Virus record (IMG/VR): IMGVR_UViG_3300010883_017752
Span: 1-20,435 of that record
Strand: one strand, 5' to 3'
Source of the DNA: a virus
Length of the DNA stretch: 20,435 nucleotides
Shown: one piece after another, positions 11,128 to 18,845 of the stretch
Layout of the letters: each line of letters begins with the position of its first letter
Numbering within the stretch: the stretch's first letter is position 1
The notes under the pieces: generated by a model
Told to the model about the DNA's origin: nothing
What the model saw: only the letters and a program-made list of their open reading frames with translations
Database searches by the model: none
Made by a program: the position numbers and the translations under genes

Positions 11128-11895
11128 ATGAAAATATTCATAGCTACTCCAGTGCATTCTAATTGTGTAGATTACCGTTACATGATTAGTCTAATAAATT
11201 CTTTTCAATTTTTGTCTAGTTCGAGAATTGCTGTAACGTTAAGATTCTTGCAGGGGTCTTTGATAAATAGGTCCAGAAATGAGCTAGTGTCTTTGTTTTT
11301 GGAAGATACAGAGAGTACACATTTACTTTTTATAGATTCAGATATTTTTGACTTTGATAAAGGTTGTTTACAAAGGATAGTCAGCGCAGATAAAGATGTG
11401 GTTGGAGGTATCTATCCCATCAAAAAACTTGAAGAAGACAGAATAAAATTATTGTACAAAAATTTCTCAGAATCCAATCATAAAGAGATATTTTCTGGTT
11501 CTTACAAGTATAATATAAATGTAGGAAAGAGTTTATTTGCCGTGCATGAAGAGGCAAAGAATAACGATGGATTTTTAGAGGTTAATCAGCTTGCTACTGG
11601 ATTTTTGCTAATCAAAAGAACAGTATTTGAGGCGATGATTGAAGCTTATCCAGAAAGAAAATATACTCCCTACCCCGATCAAAAACAATTTCAGTCAGGC
11701 AATCTATATAACTTCTTTGACTCCTATATAGATCAGGATACAAACGAATACCTCTCTGAAGACTATGGTTTTTGCCAGCTTTGGACGAAACTGAACGGAA
11801 AAATCTACGCGGATTCTCATTCTTCACTTTCTCACGCTGGACTGTTTGACTATAAAGGAAGCTTTATAGACATGGTCAGAAAGTTTGTAGGCTAA
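11128..11895 (+). CDS. GT-A type glycosyltransferase-like protein
   Basis: A 255-residue protein with a GT-A nucleotide-sugar transferase layout. The first strand is 'MKIFIATPVHS', followed by a helix and 'GSLINRSRNELVSLFL' (about residues 43-58). The metal and nucleotide-sugar site is 'LLFIDSDIFDF' (DSD at 70-72). 'VVGGIYPIKK' and 'ATGFLLIKRTVFEAM' follow, and 'SEDYGFCQLW' is the likely catalytic acidic segment. This order is seen in phage and cellular GT2-like or Anp1-like enzymes. The acceptor is unknown; modified DNA bases, virion proteins or host surface glycans are all possible. The ribosome binding site is poor, so translation may depend on the preceding kinase gene, which ends 4 bases upstream. 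Confidence 0.78.
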   Translation: MKIFIATPVHSNCVDYRYMISLINSFQFLSSSRIAVTLRFLQGSLINRSRNELVSLFLEDTESTHLLFIDSDIFDFDKGCLQRIVSADKDVVGGIYPIKKLEEDRIKLLYKNFSESNHKEIFSGSYKYNINVGKSLFAVHEEAKNNDGFLEVNQLATGFLLIKRTVFEAMIEAYPERKYTPYPDQKQFQSGNLYNFFDSYIDQDTNEYLSEDYGFCQLWTKLNGKIYADSHSSLSHAGLFDYKGSFIDMVRKFVG

Positions 11896-11897
11896 AC

Positions 11898-12908
11898 ATG
11901 CTTGTCAGCTACATAAGAAGCTCTTCTTACAACAATTACGATTATTGCCAGCAGCAGTACTACATTAGTTATGTACTGGGGCACTCAACCGTATCTGGGA
12001 AAAAGGCTCAGATGGGGACGATAGTTCATAAAGTCATGGAGTGCTTGGCTAGAGCTAAAAAGTCTTTGCAAGACAATAAAAAGAGCTTTAAGGATGATGT
12101 GCTTGGCAGGGTTAGAATAACCAAGGACAAGGTTAAGTCTGAAAAATTTGTCAACACTCTAATAGAAAAAAGTTACGAGCATTATACAAACGATTCCCCC
12201 CACGACTTTACGAAAAAAGACTTTCGAGATTGTGAAAAATGGTCTTGGATGGCCATTCACTATAACAATGGCCAGTTTGATCCGAGAAATAGAAATGTAG
12301 TGGAGGCGGAGCCTCACTTCGACATAGAGATTACTGAGCCTTGGGCGAAGTATTCTTACGATCTTCCAGACGGGACTAAGCTGGAAGGCAACTTAGCCAT
12401 TAAGGGTACAATCGATCTCGTAACCCAGATAGATGATGGCGTCATCGAAGTTATAGACTGGAAGACTGGCCGCAGAATAGACTGGGCTAGTGGAGAAGAA
12501 AAGACCTACGAGAAACTATCCATAGATCCGCAACTTCTTTTGTACTACTACGCTATCTCTAAGATATTTCCCGACTACAAACAAGCAATCATGTCTATAT
12601 TCTACATAAGAGATGGAGGTCCATTTAGTCTATGCTTTGATGAATCTGACCAAACAATGTTTCTAGATATGCTGAGAACTAGGTTCGCGCAAATCAAGAA
12701 CAATACCAAGCCACAACTCATTTCAAAAAATAGATCTCACTGGAAATGCACAAGGCTGTGCGACTACTGCAAGAATGACTGGGAAGGTACGGACAAGAGT
12801 ATATGTCAATATGTTCAGGAAGAGGTGGAAAAAAATGGTATTGAACAAGCAACATTAACATGCACACAAAAGGGGTTTAGCCTTGGATACTACGACGCAC
12901 CCGGTTAA
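11898..12908 (+). CDS. Cas4/RecB-like PD-(D/E)XK nuclease with iron-sulfur-type cysteines
   Basis: A 336-residue nuclease of the RecB/AddB/Cas4 group. The nuclease motifs are 'GTIVHKVME' (H44), 'GTIDLVTQIDDGVIEVIDWK' (D173, D187, K189) and 'DPQLLLYYYAI', the QxxxY motif that positions DNA. One Cys near the N-terminus ('YDYCQQQYY', C17) and a cluster near the C-terminus ('CTRLCDYCKNDW', then 'SICQY') match the four-cysteine iron-sulfur arrangement known in Cas4 and AddB. Such enzymes degrade or resect DNA ends. There is no CRISPR array or other cas gene here, so a role in recombination or replication is likelier than adaptation. Its end overlaps the next gene by 26 bases. Confidence 0.86.
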   Translation: MLVSYIRSSSYNNYDYCQQQYYISYVLGHSTVSGKKAQMGTIVHKVMECLARAKKSLQDNKKSFKDDVLGRVRITKDKVKSEKFVNTLIEKSYEHYTNDSPHDFTKKDFRDCEKWSWMAIHYNNGQFDPRNRNVVEAEPHFDIEITEPWAKYSYDLPDGTKLEGNLAIKGTIDLVTQIDDGVIEVIDWKTGRRIDWASGEEKTYEKLSIDPQLLLYYYAISKIFPDYKQAIMSIFYIRDGGPFSLCFDESDQTMFLDMLRTRFAQIKNNTKPQLISKNRSHWKCTRLCDYCKNDWEGTDKSICQYVQEEVEKNGIEQATLTCTQKGFSLGYYDAPG

Positions 12909-13833
12909 ATATCTAACCAATGATGAAGTATGTAATATATTATCTGTCCCAGAATGTGTTGGAGTTGTAGAAGAGTTATTCAAAGACCTTAGCAACACCC
13001 AGATGCCCCCTAAGATATATCTAGATATACCAAACGGAGACTTCAGAGCAATGCCAGCAGTGGTTGGCTCTACGGCAGGAATAAAGTGGTGTGGAGTTCA
13101 TCTAGACGAAACAGGACATAGGCGGAAGGTTAATATCTTTGCCAAAGTTTTAATCAACGATACCGTATCTGGAAAGCTTTTGGCTATCATGGACGGAGAA
13201 TCAATAACCTCCATAAGAACAGCGGCCGTGACTGGGGTTGCCACTAAATATTTATCTCGTCTAGATTCAAAGATAGCTGCATTTATAGGATGTGGAAATC
13301 AAACTAAATATCAGATAGAAGCAATTCTTAGTGTTAGAGATATAAAAACGATTAAGTTATATGATTTGCACTCAGAAATCGCAGAAAAAATGGCCGCAAA
13401 TTTTGAAGGCTATGAAACAATTGTGTGTGAGACGCTAGAGGATTGTGTTGTAGATGCGGATATAGTAACTACGCTTACTCCGTCAAGAAATGGATATCTT
13501 AAATACGAATGGTTACTTCCAACCGTTCATATTAATGCCGTGGGAGCTGACGCTGAAGGCAAACAAGAATTAGACGGGTCAGTGCTAGACAATGTCGATT
13601 GGGTCATCTATGATAATTATGAGCAATGTTCTCACTCTGGAGAAATACAATACGTTAAGTATAAAGATAAGAAACAGGAGTGGAATTCTCTGGAAAATGT
13701 CGTGTCGAAACTGAACTTGAAACAGGGATGGATTCAGGATACACTGTTCGATGCCACGGGTCTGGCCATCGAGGATGTAGCCACAGGAAGGTATATTTAT
13801 GAAAAACTTATCAGGTCGGAACAGTCTAGTTGA
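12883..13833 (+). CDS. Ornithine cyclodeaminase / mu-crystallin family enzyme
   Basis: A 316-residue NAD(P)-dependent enzyme of the family that includes ornithine cyclodeaminase (ornithine to proline plus ammonia), bacterial ketimine reductases and SbnB-type synthases. Seen here: 'FRAMPA' (R55), 'GIKWCGVH' (K68), 'MDGESITSIRTAAVTGVATK' (R112), the dinucleotide-binding loop 'FIGCGNQTKYQ' (134-144, a G.GNQ variant) and 'INAVGADAEGKQELD' (D223, K227). R55, K68, R112 and D223 line up with the substrate-binding and catalytic residues known for Pseudomonas ornithine cyclodeaminase. The start must be the TTG at 12883 (AGGGG 7 bases upstream); the next ATG would cut off 40 residues. It overlaps nuclease genes on both sides. 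The exact substrate cannot be told from sequence. Confidence 0.9.
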   Translation: MDTTTHPVKYLTNDEVCNILSVPECVGVVEELFKDLSNTQMPPKIYLDIPNGDFRAMPAVVGSTAGIKWCGVHLDETGHRRKVNIFAKVLINDTVSGKLLAIMDGESITSIRTAAVTGVATKYLSRLDSKIAAFIGCGNQTKYQIEAILSVRDIKTIKLYDLHSEIAEKMAANFEGYETIVCETLEDCVVDADIVTTLTPSRNGYLKYEWLLPTVHINAVGADAEGKQELDGSVLDNVDWVIYDNYEQCSHSGEIQYVKYKDKKQEWNSLENVVSKLNLKQGWIQDTLFDATGLAIEDVATGRYIYEKLIRSEQSS

Positions 13834-14368
13834 AGTTAAGTTTACAGACGAAATGTTGGCTAGAGCCAAGATTAAGGCAAAAGGCCTAGGCTCAATAAAG
13901 AACTCTATCAGAAAAGGTAAGGGTAACATTGTTGGTTATCTTGGAGAGGAAATTGTAGCCCACTACATGAAAGCTGACATTATAAGTAACGATGAGGGTA
14001 CAGAAAAGTATAACTATGACTTAGTCAAAGATGGAAAAAAGATTGAGGTTAAGTCTAAAGAAAGAAATGTTGCCCCCCTAGATTTTTACGATGCTAGCGT
14101 TGCGGAGACTAGCAGACATCAACAAACCGACATCTATGTATTCACCAGCATAGAATGCGAAGGAGGCAAACCTGTCAGAGCTTGGATTTGTGGACAGAAG
14201 GATGCTAAGGAATATTTTGAACAGGCCCGCTTTTACGCAAAGGGTGACATAGATCCTTCTAACGATTGGAAAGTTAAAACCGATTGCCACAACATGCTGT
14301 ACAAAGATCTTGACCCAGTAGAGCTTGAAGGCTACGAGGAAGAGGAAGAATTTCCGTTTAAGTTTTAG
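13799..14368 (+). CDS. Putative PD-(D/E)XK nuclease-like protein (189 aa)
   Basis: A small protein with the core of a restriction-type nuclease. 'GYLGEEIVAHYM' (E50 or E51) is followed by 'YNYDLVKDGKKIEVKSKERN' (D74, E83, K85), which fits E...D...ExK. After this come 'TDIYVFTSIE' and 'RAWICGQKDAKEY', the strands expected to complete the fold. It resembles the small phage proteins annotated as PD-(D/E)XK endonucleases, but I cannot assign a named family. The tail is strongly acidic ('EGYEEEEEFPF'). The start is supported by AGGAAGG 6 bases upstream, and it overlaps the cyclodeaminase gene by 35 bases. A role in nicking or processing DNA next to the polymerase genes is likely but not shown. Confidence 0.72.
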   Translation: MKNLSGRNSLVEVKFTDEMLARAKIKAKGLGSIKNSIRKGKGNIVGYLGEEIVAHYMKADIISNDEGTEKYNYDLVKDGKKIEVKSKERNVAPLDFYDASVAETSRHQQTDIYVFTSIECEGGKPVRAWICGQKDAKEYFEQARFYAKGDIDPSNDWKVKTDCHNMLYKDLDPVELEGYEEEEEFPFKF

Positions 14369-14377
14369 GACAACAAG

Positions 14378-16297
14378 ATGCCAGTTTGGACACCTCTGCA
14401 TTTGCACACACACTACAGCCTCCTAGATGGTCTCTCAAAGCCGTCTCAGGTTGCCGATAGATGTTCTGATCTTGGGTACACCTCGTGCGCCGTCACAGAT
14501 CACGGAACAATCTCCGGGGCAATCTCTTTTGTGGGAGCCATGAAGGATAAAAATATTAAGCCCATCTTAGGCTGTGAATTTTATCTCTCACAACAATCAT
14601 GTAGTATTAAAGATAAGTCAAACCGCTCCTTAAGTCACCTAGTAGTCTTAGCGAAAAATAAGAATGGCTGGGATAAACTTATCCAAGCAACTTCTAAAAG
14701 TAACGACGACGGGATATTCTATTTTAAACCTAGATTAGATCTCGATTTGTTAGCGGACTACTGTGATGGAAGCTTGATTTCTTTTAGTGGTCACATGGGG
14801 AGCGACTTAGCCAACGTCCTGTTTACTGATTATCGAATTGGATACAACGCTTCAACATATGAAGAGGCCACGTCAGAGTTAGATCCCGACTGGAAAAGCA
14901 AAGCCACAAGGCTTGCAGAAAAGTATAGGGAAATTTTTGGGAAAGAAAACTTTTTTATTGAGATTCAACTAATAGATAAAGACAATGCCCCCTCCACAAT
15001 TCTGATAGCTGAATGCTTAAGAGAAGTTAGCAAACACACGGGGATTCCATGTGTCGCCACGGCAGATTCCCACTACCCGACAAAGGAGGATGCCCTAGAT
15101 CAGAGACTACTTCTTTGTTCCGCGATGAAGACCACCCTGAGTAAGATTGAAAGCAAGATGAACGCAGGAGAAGACGTTGGACTATCTTCCTTCTTTCGTT
15201 CTAATAATTATCACATCCCATCTAGAGATGAAATTGAAGCTATCAATACTCCAGAAGAGATTGCTAATACTGTTCTAATCGAGGGCATGTGCGAGGAGTA
15301 CAACATACTAGGTTCCCCGATGCTCCCCCAGTTCTCTTGCCCAAACGATTTAACAGAAGATGAATACCTCAAAGAGCTTTGTCGTCATGGTTGGAAAAGT
15401 CTTCTAAAGGCCGGGAATAAGATTGAAGAGGACGATAAGCTTCAGGCGTATTTGTATAGAATTAAAAAAGAATTGGAAATCATACAGGGTGCGAATTTAT
15501 CTGGCTATTTTTTGATAGTTAGAGATATAGTAAATTACATCAAGGACAACGGCTGGCTTCCGGGTCCGGGCAGAGGGTCAGCGGCGGGCTGTCTGGTTTC
15601 ATACCTTGTGGGTATCACCAAGGTAGATCCAATAGAACACGACCTTCTTTTCGAAAGATTTTATAACGCTGGCCGAAACACGGATGACCACATCTCTTTG
15701 CCAGATATCGACATAGATGTTCCCGCAGAGAAGCGCGATGATACAATTGGTTATATCCGATCTAAGTACGGAAACAACAAGGTTGGACAGATGATTACGT
15801 TTGGTAGACTTCAAGGGCGAGGAGCTTTGAAGGAGGTGTTTAGGGTTCATCAGGCGTGTAGCTTTGATGAGATAAATGCTATCACAAAAAATATTCCCCA
15901 AGAGCATGAGATTTCTGATCAACTAGAAAATATGAGTAAACCCTCTATTATCAAGTGGGCATTGATTAATCAGCCTGAAGGATTAAAAGAGTGGTGTCAT
16001 ATAAATGATGATGAGCAATTGGAAGGAAAATATTCTAAACTGTTTGAACAAGCCATAAGACTTGAAGGGACGTATAAATCTCAGGGTAAACATGCCGCAG
16101 GGGTTGTAATTTCTTCAGAGAATCTTAGTGATGTATGTCCCATGATAAGAGATAAGCATGGAGAAGAAAAAGTTGCGGGACTAGAAATGCAGGATTTAGA
16201 AGCTATGGGCCACGTTAAATTTGATGTATTAGGTATTAATTTCTTAGATAAAATTATGAAAATCATAAAGGATATCAGTAATGAAGAGCGCGAATGA
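14378..16297 (+). CDS. dnaE: DNA polymerase III alpha subunit, N-terminal half (PHP and palm)
   Basis: The first 639 residues of a DnaE-type replicative polymerase. The PHP domain opens with 'LHLHTHYSLLDG' (H8, H10, H12), continues with 'AVTDHGTISG', and includes 'TADSHYPTKEDA', so its metal ligands look intact. The palm has 'GPGRGSAAGCLVSYLVGITK', the catalytic 'SLPDIDIDVPAEKRD' (D445, D447) and 'GHVKFDVLGIN' (D616), equivalent to D401, D403 and D555 of E. coli. The protein then stops at 'DISNEERE', just before the region a full-length DnaE continues with. All three catalytic aspartates are in this half; most of the fingers are not. It would need the product of 17253-18845 to act. Confidence 0.95.
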   Translation: MPVWTPLHLHTHYSLLDGLSKPSQVADRCSDLGYTSCAVTDHGTISGAISFVGAMKDKNIKPILGCEFYLSQQSCSIKDKSNRSLSHLVVLAKNKNGWDKLIQATSKSNDDGIFYFKPRLDLDLLADYCDGSLISFSGHMGSDLANVLFTDYRIGYNASTYEEATSELDPDWKSKATRLAEKYREIFGKENFFIEIQLIDKDNAPSTILIAECLREVSKHTGIPCVATADSHYPTKEDALDQRLLLCSAMKTTLSKIESKMNAGEDVGLSSFFRSNNYHIPSRDEIEAINTPEEIANTVLIEGMCEEYNILGSPMLPQFSCPNDLTEDEYLKELCRHGWKSLLKAGNKIEEDDKLQAYLYRIKKELEIIQGANLSGYFLIVRDIVNYIKDNGWLPGPGRGSAAGCLVSYLVGITKVDPIEHDLLFERFYNAGRNTDDHISLPDIDIDVPAEKRDDTIGYIRSKYGNNKVGQMITFGRLQGRGALKEVFRVHQACSFDEINAITKNIPQEHEISDQLENMSKPSIIKWALINQPEGLKEWCHINDDEQLEGKYSKLFEQAIRLEGTYKSQGKHAAGVVISSENLSDVCPMIRDKHGEEKVAGLEMQDLEAMGHVKFDVLGINFLDKIMKIIKDISNEERE

Positions 16298-16511
16298 TTA
16301 TTACCAAAATGTACTTCTGGACGGATGCTCTATCGAGTATCAGAAATTAAGCATTTGTGATTTAAGAGATTACTATAATTTTTATAGCAGAAGAAAAACA
16401 CCTATCTATCAAGTGCATTGTGATGATTCTCAGAATAGATTTTCTCAAATCTATAAAGATATCAGCGAGGCAATCAACAGTTTCGTCGAATTGAAAAAGA
16501 AAATATCTTAA
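16281..16511 (+). CDS. Small protein of unknown function between the polymerase halves (76 aa)
   Basis: Unrecognised. It overlaps the end of the polymerase N-half by 17 bases and has a good ribosome binding site (AAAGGA, 8 bases before the ATG). It is rich in Tyr, Ser and Lys, with 'DLRDYYNFYSRRKTPIY' and a helical C-terminus, 'ISEAINSFVELKKKIS'. I see no GIY-YIG, HNH or LAGLIDADG signature, so it does not look like a homing endonuclease or a remnant of one, and it has no intein blocks. Its position inside the split polymerase locus suggests either a small replisome partner or a newcomer at the break. Confidence 0.62.
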   Translation: MKSANDYYQNVLLDGCSIEYQKLSICDLRDYYNFYSRRKTPIYQVHCDDSQNRFSQIYKDISEAINSFVELKKKIS

Positions 16512-16557
16512 TTATACGCTGGAGAAAGTTTAGAATTTAATAGTCACGCCCATAACA

Positions 16558-16564
16558 AAAGGAG
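16558..16564 (+). promoter_or_regulatory. Ribosome binding site of the exonuclease, defining an ATC start
   Basis: AAAGGAG followed by 6 bases and then ATC at 16571. The ssb gene has the identical heptamer with the identical 6-base spacing before its ATG. This is the main reason to place the exonuclease start at the non-standard ATC codon. Confidence 0.7.
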
Positions 16565-16570
16565 ATAGCC

Positions 16571-17260
16571 ATCAATTACAGGGACATAATTGTCTTCGAT
16601 TTTGAGACCGGTTCTAGAAATCCAGCAAAGACACAGCCGACACAAATTGCAGCAATAGCTCTTCATGGAAGAAAGCTAACCATCCAACCCGGAGGTATTT
16701 TTAACAGCGAGATCAGGCCGATCTTAAACGACGACAAGGCCACGGAGATGGGACTTGATCCGGTTGAAGAGGAAGCCTTAAATATTACGCATAAAACTCG
16801 CAAAGAACTTGCAAAAGCCCCGCATCTTAAAACGGTATGGAAAAAGTTTGGCGAGTTTGTCAACAAGTTTAACTTCAAGAAGACACCCTATTTTGCTCCT
16901 ATCCCAGCGGGCTATAACATTATTGGTTTTGATCTGCCCATTGTTCAAAGGGTTTGTGAAGAACATGGGCCAACCGACAAACAGGGTAGGCAATGTTTGT
17001 TTAATAAAATCCACAAAGTAGATGTCATGGATATGGTTTGGCAGTGGATGGAAAACAATCCCGACGTAAAGTCTCTCAGCATGGACAGCATGCGGGATTA
17101 CATGGGGTTTCCAGAGGAGAGCAAGGAAGGCGCCCATGATGCCCTACAGGACGTTAAAGATACGGCCAACATGATGATCAGGTTCTTTAAATTCTATCGC
17201 TCCCTCGCTCCAAAAGTGAAATTTGAAAAGGCTTTTGCAGACGGAAACTTCTATGTTTGA
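16571..17260 (+). CDS. dnaQ: DEDDh 3'-5' exonuclease (DnaQ-like), ATC start inferred
   Basis: A proofreading-type exonuclease of 229 residues. Numbered from the ATC codon as residue 1, the motifs are complete. Exo I is 'IIVFDFETGS' (D10, E12), Exo II is 'YNIIGFDLPIV' (D121) and Exo III is 'GAHDALQDV' (H189, D194), the H-x4-D spacing of the DEDDh class. The open frame begins after a stop at 16553-16555 and has no ATG, GTG or TTG before Exo I. The first ATG, at 16748, would remove it and leave an inactive protein. The stop overlaps the ATG of the polymerase C-half by 8 bases. It probably proofreads for the split polymerase in trans, like bacterial epsilon. The ATC could also be a mutated ATG or a sequencing error. 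Confidence 0.88.
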   Translation: MNYRDIIVFDFETGSRNPAKTQPTQIAAIALHGRKLTIQPGGIFNSEIRPILNDDKATEMGLDPVEEEALNITHKTRKELAKAPHLKTVWKKFGEFVNKFNFKKTPYFAPIPAGYNIIGFDLPIVQRVCEEHGPTDKQGRQCLFNKIHKVDVMDMVWQWMENNPDVKSLSMDSMRDYMGFPEESKEGAHDALQDVKDTANMMIRFFKFYRSLAPKVKFEKAFADGNFYV

Positions 17261-18845
17261 TATCAATGACACATCTTATGACTGCCGCAAAACTTGGAGC
17301 CTTATTTGTGACGGGAGAACTAAGGGTGTTTTTCAATTAGAGAGTCAGCTTGGGCGGTCTTGGGCGAAGAGACTGAAGCCCAGAAACATTGAAGAGCTTG
17401 CTGCTTTGTCCGCCTTGCTTCGACCGGGATGCTTAAAGGCTATCGTTGATGGCAAGTCAATGACTCAGCATTATGTGGATAGAAAAAATGGACACGAAGA
17501 AGCTTCTTATTTAGACGAATCTTTAAAGCCTATACTTAAACCCACATATGGAGTGTTGGTATATCAGGAGCAGTCTATGAGAATTGCTCAGGAGATTGCT
17601 GGCTTTAATCTCCAACAGGCAGATGATCTTAGAAAAGCTATTGGAAAAAAGAAGGCGGGCCTCATGGCGGAGGTCAAAAAAACTTTTATCAAGGGATGCA
17701 AAAATACATCCATTGTTTCTGAAGAAATTGCGGAGGAAATATTTGGTTGGATTGAAAAGTCAAATCGGTACGCATTTAATAAATCTCATGCTGTTAGTTA
17801 TGCTATTTGTGGCTATTGGTCTGCATACTGTAAAGCGCATTTTCCTCTACATTTCTATTGCAGTTACCTCTACCATTCACACGGCAAGCAAGATCAGCAA
17901 CAAGAAGTAAAAGAGCTGGTATCTGATGCCAAGATGCATGACATTATAGTTATGCCGCCGAAGGTTGACAATCTAAAAGGTCATTTTAACATTAAGGACG
18001 GCAATATTTATTTTGGACTACAAGATGTTAAGTATATTGGTGGTAGTCAGGTTGAGAAGGTAATCTCTGGGATAAAAGAAATAGAAGAGAAGTATGGTCA
18101 GGGGATTAAGGATATTAGTTGGCATAGAATATTGATTAATTTATCGGATAAGATCAACAGCAACGCTATGATAGCTCTTATCTCTATCGGGGCGCTTAAT
18201 TCTGATTATACCATTACTAGAAATAGAATGCTTTATGAGTTTGAAACTTGGTCTAGCTTAACTAAAAAAGAAAAAGATTGGGCGAAAGAAAACTGCGATG
18301 ACCCCAAGGGTTTGTTCCCAGAAAAAGGAAACAAGGGATTAGAGACAACGTTAGACAGACTGTTTCCTACCAAGAAAGAAGGTGGAGGAACTCATAATTC
18401 AAGGAGGAAGGATATAGTTAAGGATCTGAGAGACCTTTTAAAAAATCCCCCCTACGAACTAGACGATATGCCGGATTGGATAGCCTCCGAAGAGCAAAAA
18501 TATCTAGGAGTATCTCTTACATATTCAAAGATTGATGGTTGTGATACTGGAGCGTCAAACACCACATGTAAAGAATTCCTACAGGGCAAACCGGGCAAGG
18601 TTGTTTTGGGAGTAGAGATTATTTCATTAAGAGAATGGACTATTAGAAAGGGCAATAGTAAGGGCGATGTTATGGCTTTTCTTTCTGTGGAAGATAGCAC
18701 TGCCTCAATGGATTCTGTTATTCTCTTCCCCGAAGCTTGGTTAAAAAATAAGGCCTTGCTATATTCGGGGAACACGGTACTTCTATCTGGGAAAAAATCT
18801 TCCAAAGACACTACCCTCATAGTGGAAAAAGTTTTTCAAATCTAG
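17253..18845 (+). CDS. dnaE: DNA polymerase III alpha subunit, C-terminal half (fingers, HhH, OB-fold)
   Basis: The second part of the DnaE polymerase, 530 residues from the ATG at 17253. The in-frame TTG at 17223 has no ribosome binding site. It opens exactly where the N-half ends: 'MFDINDTSYDCRKTW' corresponds to the segment before the conserved 'KGVFQLESQLGRSW' (about residues 28-41). The fingers continue with 'ALLRPG', 'PTYGVLVYQEQSMRIAQEIA' and 'RYAFNKSHAVSYA'. 'FGLQDVKYIGGSQVEKV' is the helix-hairpin-helix region, and the last 100 residues form an OB-fold ending in 'LIVEKVFQI'. No canonical clamp-binding peptide is obvious at the end. With the N-half the total is about 1170 residues, close to one normal DnaE, so very little appears lost. 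Confidence 0.93.
   Translation: MFDINDTSYDCRKTWSLICDGRTKGVFQLESQLGRSWAKRLKPRNIEELAALSALLRPGCLKAIVDGKSMTQHYVDRKNGHEEASYLDESLKPILKPTYGVLVYQEQSMRIAQEIAGFNLQQADDLRKAIGKKKAGLMAEVKKTFIKGCKNTSIVSEEIAEEIFGWIEKSNRYAFNKSHAVSYAICGYWSAYCKAHFPLHFYCSYLYHSHGKQDQQQEVKELVSDAKMHDIIVMPPKVDNLKGHFNIKDGNIYFGLQDVKYIGGSQVEKVISGIKEIEEKYGQGIKDISWHRILINLSDKINSNAMIALISIGALNSDYTITRNRMLYEFETWSSLTKKEKDWAKENCDDPKGLFPEKGNKGLETTLDRLFPTKKEGGGTHNSRRKDIVKDLRDLLKNPPYELDDMPDWIASEEQKYLGVSLTYSKIDGCDTGASNTTCKEFLQGKPGKVVLGVEIISLREWTIRKGNSKGDVMAFLSVEDSTASMDSVILFPEAWLKNKALLYSGNTVLLSGKKSSKDTTLIVEKVFQI

Follow-up and report, generated by a model that had tools for sequence, protein, structure and literature searches.

A virus-only clade of putative alanine dehydrogenase-type genes of the ornithine cyclodeaminase family in uncultured phages

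The ornithine cyclodeaminase (OCD) superfamily takes in ketimine reductases (PMC4113996) as well as OCD itself. In the OCD of Pseudomonas putida, Arg45, Lys69 and Arg112 touch the carboxylate of ornithine, Glu56 its delta-amine, and Asp228 its alpha-amine (PMC3840593, PMC3497308). A Haloferax homologue of archaeal alanine dehydrogenase (AlaDH), HVO_0454, is upregulated on alanine as a nitrogen source (PMC6801745). No AlaDH-type virus gene was reported in the open papers searched, and no family for the gene described here exists in PHROGs, nor did the viral structure library BFVD return a match. In INPHARED no match reached 33% identity, and nearly all matches were to records without annotation. 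Open-paper searches on arginine/lysine auxiliary metabolic genes (AMGs) and on split phage DnaE found nothing relevant. The "ornithine cyclodeaminase" of the archaeal virus BJ1 proved to be a truncated open reading frame (ORF) of a haloarchaeal insertion variant and is not comparable.

The window analyzed here is a complete stretch of 20,435 bases, an IMG/VR record confirmed as viral, in which no tRNA was detected. A first-pass annotation had described a full-length, TTG-started member of the OCD family in this window, and that description holds. The ORF is intact, with no internal stop, and its product aligns with almost the full length of the PF02423 profile (residues 12-310 against profile positions 7-311 of 314; E 2.4e-73, 247.3 bits versus a gathering score of 24). 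The closest relative, L001, has the identical TTG start, with AAAGGGG as the ribosome-binding site. A homologue with 84% identity was found among virus contigs and dN/dS was 0.04-0.15 in eight pairwise comparisons, so the ORF is not a chance one; the same dN/dS values reveal purifying selection, with the protein kept for its function. The gene lies in a virus genome, is conserved among related viruses, and has phage genes on its flanks. The first-pass annotation had allowed for a bacterial window or a non-catalytic branch of the family; a bacterial contaminant was ruled out by the viral nature of the record and by the finding of its block again in related virus contigs, and the catalytic positions are intact.

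Table 1. Positions of the window gene, its diagnostic residues and its neighbors, and of the linked operon in related contigs.
Feature	Position	Strand	Basis
AlaDH-type OCD/mu-crystallin family gene, 316 aa, TTG start	12883..13833	+	PF02423, TIGR02371, 1omo/1vll
Shine-Dalgarno-like AAAAGGGG, 7-base spacer before TTG	12868..12875	+	Sequence; common to L001
Lys44 codon (OCD Arg45, AlaDH Lys41)	13012..13014	+	Alignment
Arg55 codon (OCD Glu56, AlaDH Arg52); residue distinguishing both types	13045..13047	+	Alignment
Lys68 codon (OCD Lys69; AF1665 Lys65)	13084..13086	+	Alignment
Arg112 codon (OCD Arg112; AF1665 Arg108)	13216..13218	+	Alignment
GCGNQ dinucleotide-binding motif, residues 136-140	13288..13302	+	G136, G138, Q140 invariant in 38 sequences
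Asp161 codon, end of second Rossmann strand	13363..13365	+	Invariant in 14 viral copies, nearly so in 38 sequences
Asp223 codon (OCD catalytic Asp228; AF1665 Asp219)	13549..13551	+	Alignment
PD-(D/E)XK exonuclease gene, upstream, 26-nt overlap	11898..12908	+	PF12705 E 4.8e-19, phrog_69
Downstream ORF, 35-nt overlap	13799..14368	+	No family above cut-off
Operon loci	L148:6245-13710; L137:6211-12112; L134-L149, L174

The residues that line the substrate site separate the two candidate types. At the five aligned positions the window protein reads K-R-K-R-D, identical at all five to the AlaDH of Archaeoglobus fulgidus, while R-E-K-R-D is the pattern in the OCDs from P. putida, from a Ti plasmid, and from a plasmid locus linked to arginase. 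Every viral copy checked had K-R-K-R-D, even the divergent L024 and L148; the cellular loci were partly fetched with a pattern containing the Arg, so that their Arg is not independent evidence. The conserved Arg, Lys and catalytic Asp positions of the first-pass annotation are borne out by Arg112, Lys68 and Asp223, with the caveat that the substrate-binding Arg45 of OCD is Lys44 here and its Glu56 is Arg55. Asp161 would be expected to favor NAD(H) in the window enzyme. Several residues (K88, E106, T117, Q256, W267) are invariant in the viral clade and unlike those of cellular AlaDHs, which suggests that the specificity of the viral enzyme may have shifted.

Profile and structure comparisons agree with the residue signature. 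The best NCBIfam model was that of the archaeal AlaDH, TIGR02371, at 234.1 bits, although its equivalog cut-off of 409.15 was missed, which we count against the AlaDH reading. The curated cut-offs for SbnB, EutC, BhcD, and the Pyr2C/Pip2C reductase equivalogs were missed by far, as were those of the OCD models. Among PDB sequences the best match was again A. fulgidus AlaDH (200 bits versus 74 for OCD). An AlphaFold (AF2) model of the protein (mean pLDDT 90.3) matched AlaDH (1vll/1omo) best in the PDB, with a VIA Z of 38.4 versus 34.0 for OCD, and each of the 25 superfamily entries among the matches listed scored a Z above 31; the model thus has the superfamily fold, together with the GxGxQ Rossmann motif. 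From the signature residues and the best sequence, structure, and NCBIfam matches combined, we read the gene as AlaDH type, and the family name ornithine cyclodeaminase is most likely misleading for it.

Two scans of viral contigs recovered 23 loci with the gene and a search for the operon described below added two contigs, for a total of about 25 virus contigs. The 16 core viral copies share 54.8-94.5% identity with one another and at most 43.8% with any cellular sequence recovered from the roughly 85,000 species genomes scanned. In a tree with OCD references, the viral clade joined the long OCD branch (91/78), without strong support, and the tree grouping it with AlaDH-type rows was not rejected (AU p 0.26). 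In a second tree, which left out the long OCD, BhcD, and EutC reference branches, the viral copies formed a virus-only clade (98/97), sister (97/84) to four loci from bacterial metagenome-assembled genomes. One of these, L026, has an alanine racemase directly downstream, and two others (L025, L072) have a sodium:alanine symporter and an M20 peptidase near the gene; the fourth, L043, has no such racemase or symporter link. By gene neighborhood, these bacterial loci point to alanine for the sister group. Neither an alanine racemase nor a symporter was found at the viral loci, which counts against an alanine reading for the phage enzyme. Judged by the cellular relatives alone, the habitat may be marine. 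One contig with the gene, L018, has Ldh_2, FBA, and volactin (actin-like; 13046-14311, minus strand) genes; a cellular archaeal origin was ruled out by its split DnaE block, which is viral.

The window gene lies in a replication block with genes for UvsX/RecA-like, DnaB, primase, deoxynucleoside monophosphate (dNMP) kinase, DnaE halves, DnaQ-like exonuclease, sigma factor, and ribonucleotide reductase (RNR) barrel domain proteins; dUTPase, PhoH, and SSB were read from the sequence. The first-pass annotation placed overlapping nuclease genes on both sides. This stands for the upstream exonuclease gene; the downstream ORF is at most a candidate nuclease, with a sub-threshold DUF6998 match (E 0.0098) and an E-V-K motif read by eye. 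In the slot between the dNMP kinase and the exonuclease, the window carries a glycosyltransferase-like gene (11128-11895) and relatives a gene resembling ThyX by eye (L009:6342-6995). DnaE is split into two genes with the DnaQ-like exonuclease gene between the halves (14378-18845), an order also seen in related virus contigs. As listed, the DnaQ-like ORF is without its N-terminus; the frame is open upstream with DFETG (approximately 16570-16748), and the Met start of the relatives is Ile in the window, possibly a non-standard start or an error. Between relatives, the RNR gene (40-1446) shows 85-89% identity, against 45-70% for most of their other replication genes, a hint of gene exchange or of strong constraint.

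Across related phages, the gene was found in at least five unrelated contexts, and always as a single copy in the records searched. In nine contigs (L001, L002, L004, L008, L009, L019, L022, L023, L137) it follows the exonuclease gene and precedes the 13799 ORF/DnaE, as in the window. A second group (L003, L005-L007, L010-L017, L021) has it between nucleotide-sugar dehydratase and HNH/ERCC4/terminase genes, except that L016 begins at the gene and shows no dehydratase. Elsewhere it adjoins PhoH (L018), ends an amino-acid operon (L148), or follows a GlmS-like gene (L024). The 161-kb record behind L012 has most of the window block, with the exonuclease gene and the 13799 ORF together and no OCD-family gene between them; that gene lies about 75 kb from the replication block. 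On this ground we rejected a function read from the replication-block position, which the first-pass annotation had called unexpected. Related phages conserve the gene but not its location, so the position says little about function. A single phage neighborhood can mislead on function: this gene adjoins replication, packaging, PhoH, GlmS, or amino-acid genes depending on the genome.

The amino-acid genes are the more novel lead. The 161-kb record encodes VOC (glyoxalase-fold), aldehyde dehydrogenase, and nucleotide-sugar-dehydrogenase-like proteins, an arginine-dihydrolase-like protein whose best PDB matches are the Alr4995/Sll1336 enzymes (206 bits versus 29 for DDAH), and a lysine-epsilon-transaminase-like protein (2cin, 348 bits). 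A core of aldehyde dehydrogenase, dihydrolase-like, and transaminase-like genes is shared by 17 virus contigs related to it, most with the VOC gene, and their transaminases are 63-100% identical to that of the 161-kb record. In L148 the order is VOC, aldehyde dehydrogenase, arginine-dihydrolase-like, lysine-transaminase-like, FBA, saccharopine-dehydrogenase-like, and, last, the OCD-family gene, which overlaps its predecessor by 8 nt. The saccharopine-dehydrogenase-like protein of L018 has as its best PDB match 3abi, which we take to be a lysine dehydrogenase. The association of the OCD-family gene with the operon is real and loose; 12 of the 14 operon contigs searched, all of them fragments, show no copy of the gene. 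In L137 and L149 the operon is inserted between the DnaE halves. The 161-kb record also has GlmS and class I FBA genes, and separate genes resembling the two halves of FadB, of fatty-acid oxidation (L111:18500-19522, L112:7275-8240).

With moderate confidence, we propose that the window gene is an AMG whose product would be an archaeal AlaDH-type amino-acid dehydrogenase, dependent on NAD(H) and with a predicted substrate. In the reaction expected of it, a hydride would pass between NAD and the alpha-carbon of a small amino acid; alanine is the likeliest substrate (alanine + NAD+ + H2O <-> pyruvate + NH4+ + NADH). Lys44, Lys68, Arg112, and perhaps Arg55 would hold the substrate, with Asp223 assisting at the amine; NAD+ would take the alpha-hydride, and water would then free ammonium and the keto acid. 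In the phage, the reaction would probably run in the deaminating direction, with ammonium, pyruvate, and NADH as products from the amino acids of the host, alongside the arginine- and lysine-processing genes of the same virus lineage. Since the gene occupies at least five places and is once joined to phage-borne genes of amino-acid breakdown, it is probably a tool with which large uncultured phages reroute host nitrogen during infection. An AMG of amino-acid metabolism, one of the first-pass suggestions, is thus still the best reading, and it fits that in L148 the gene closes the operon and overlaps the gene before it. Virus genes for amino-acid deamination bear on the sources of nitrogen and carbon for phage progeny.

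The strongest rival ties the enzyme to the arginine/lysine operon. Its specificity may have evolved in the virus, toward an amino acid or imine of that pathway (for example, lysine or ornithine ketimine) and away from alanine, a possibility that we regard as tentative. The 8-nt overlap in L148, behind VOC, aldehyde dehydrogenase, dihydrolase-like, transaminase-like, and saccharopine-dehydrogenase-like genes, argues for it, as do the ketimine reductases of the superfamily (PMC4113996) and the viral-only invariant residues, Glu106 and Lys88 among them. The neighbors in the viral operon concern arginine and lysine, which again counts against alanine. However, the five substrate positions are those of AlaDH without exception, and most viral copies are not next to the operon; 12 of the 14 operon contigs searched, all fragments, show no OCD-family gene. 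Somewhat more doubtful is the fuller version, in which these phages would encode a largely self-contained amino-acid pathway of arginine-dihydrolase-like, lysine/ornithine omega-transaminase-like, aldehyde dehydrogenase, VOC, and saccharopine-dehydrogenase-like proteins, with the OCD-family enzyme, its specificity virus-evolved, as the last step.

A true OCD, making proline from ornithine supplied by the phage arginine-dihydrolase-like enzyme, is quite unlikely. Superfamily membership, the conserved K68, R112, and D223, and the dihydrolase-like gene of the relatives, which would make ornithine, are consistent with it, but in every viral copy an Arg replaces the Glu56 with which P. putida OCD holds the delta-amine (PMC3497308), Arg45 is Lys, identity to that enzyme is 25%, and the NCBIfam OCD models fall far under their cut-offs. 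We therefore rejected OCD membership; OCD activity, one of those that the first-pass annotation listed for the family, is unsupported. Highly improbable, too, is its other suggestion, a supplier for modified DNA bases or for virion or glycan modification. Some copies adjoin a nucleotide-sugar dehydratase or GlmS-like gene, and in the window a deoxynucleotide kinase gene and a glycosyltransferase-like one lie close by; yet such neighbors vary by lineage while the gene stays, and no base-hypermodification enzyme or other evidence for such a link was recognized among the genes annotated (relatives scanned in part). Given the signature residues, the virus-only clade, and the operon linked to the gene, the question of function can be tested with one purified enzyme.

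Among characterized enzymes, the OCDs of P. putida (1u7h, 1x7d) and the Ti plasmid share with the phage protein the superfamily, the fold (Z 34.0), and the K69, R112, and D228 positions, and differ in Glu56 and Arg45. The Delta1-pyrroline-2-carboxylate reductase of Thermococcus litoralis (6t3e) is close in fold (Z 37.7; 32% identity), but its substrate positions read R-L-K-R-V, with no equivalent of Arg55 or Asp223. BhcD iminosuccinate reductase (6rqa), SbnB, EutC, and mu-crystallin have the superfamily and fold in common with it, whereas the substrate positions are V-G-K-R-D in BhcD and I-D-K-R-D in EutC. Like other phage amino-acid AMGs, the gene encodes a metabolic enzyme of the host type within the genome of a lytic-type phage; it differs from them in its AlaDH type, absent from the papers and viral collections searched. 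The closest system is AlaDH AF1665 of A. fulgidus (1omo, 1vll; TIGR02371). The phage protein differs from it in falling below the equivalog cut-off, in its own viral invariant residues, and in its varying phage neighborhoods, and resembles it in sequence (38% identity over 303 columns), in fold (Z 38.4), and in all five substrate-site residues.
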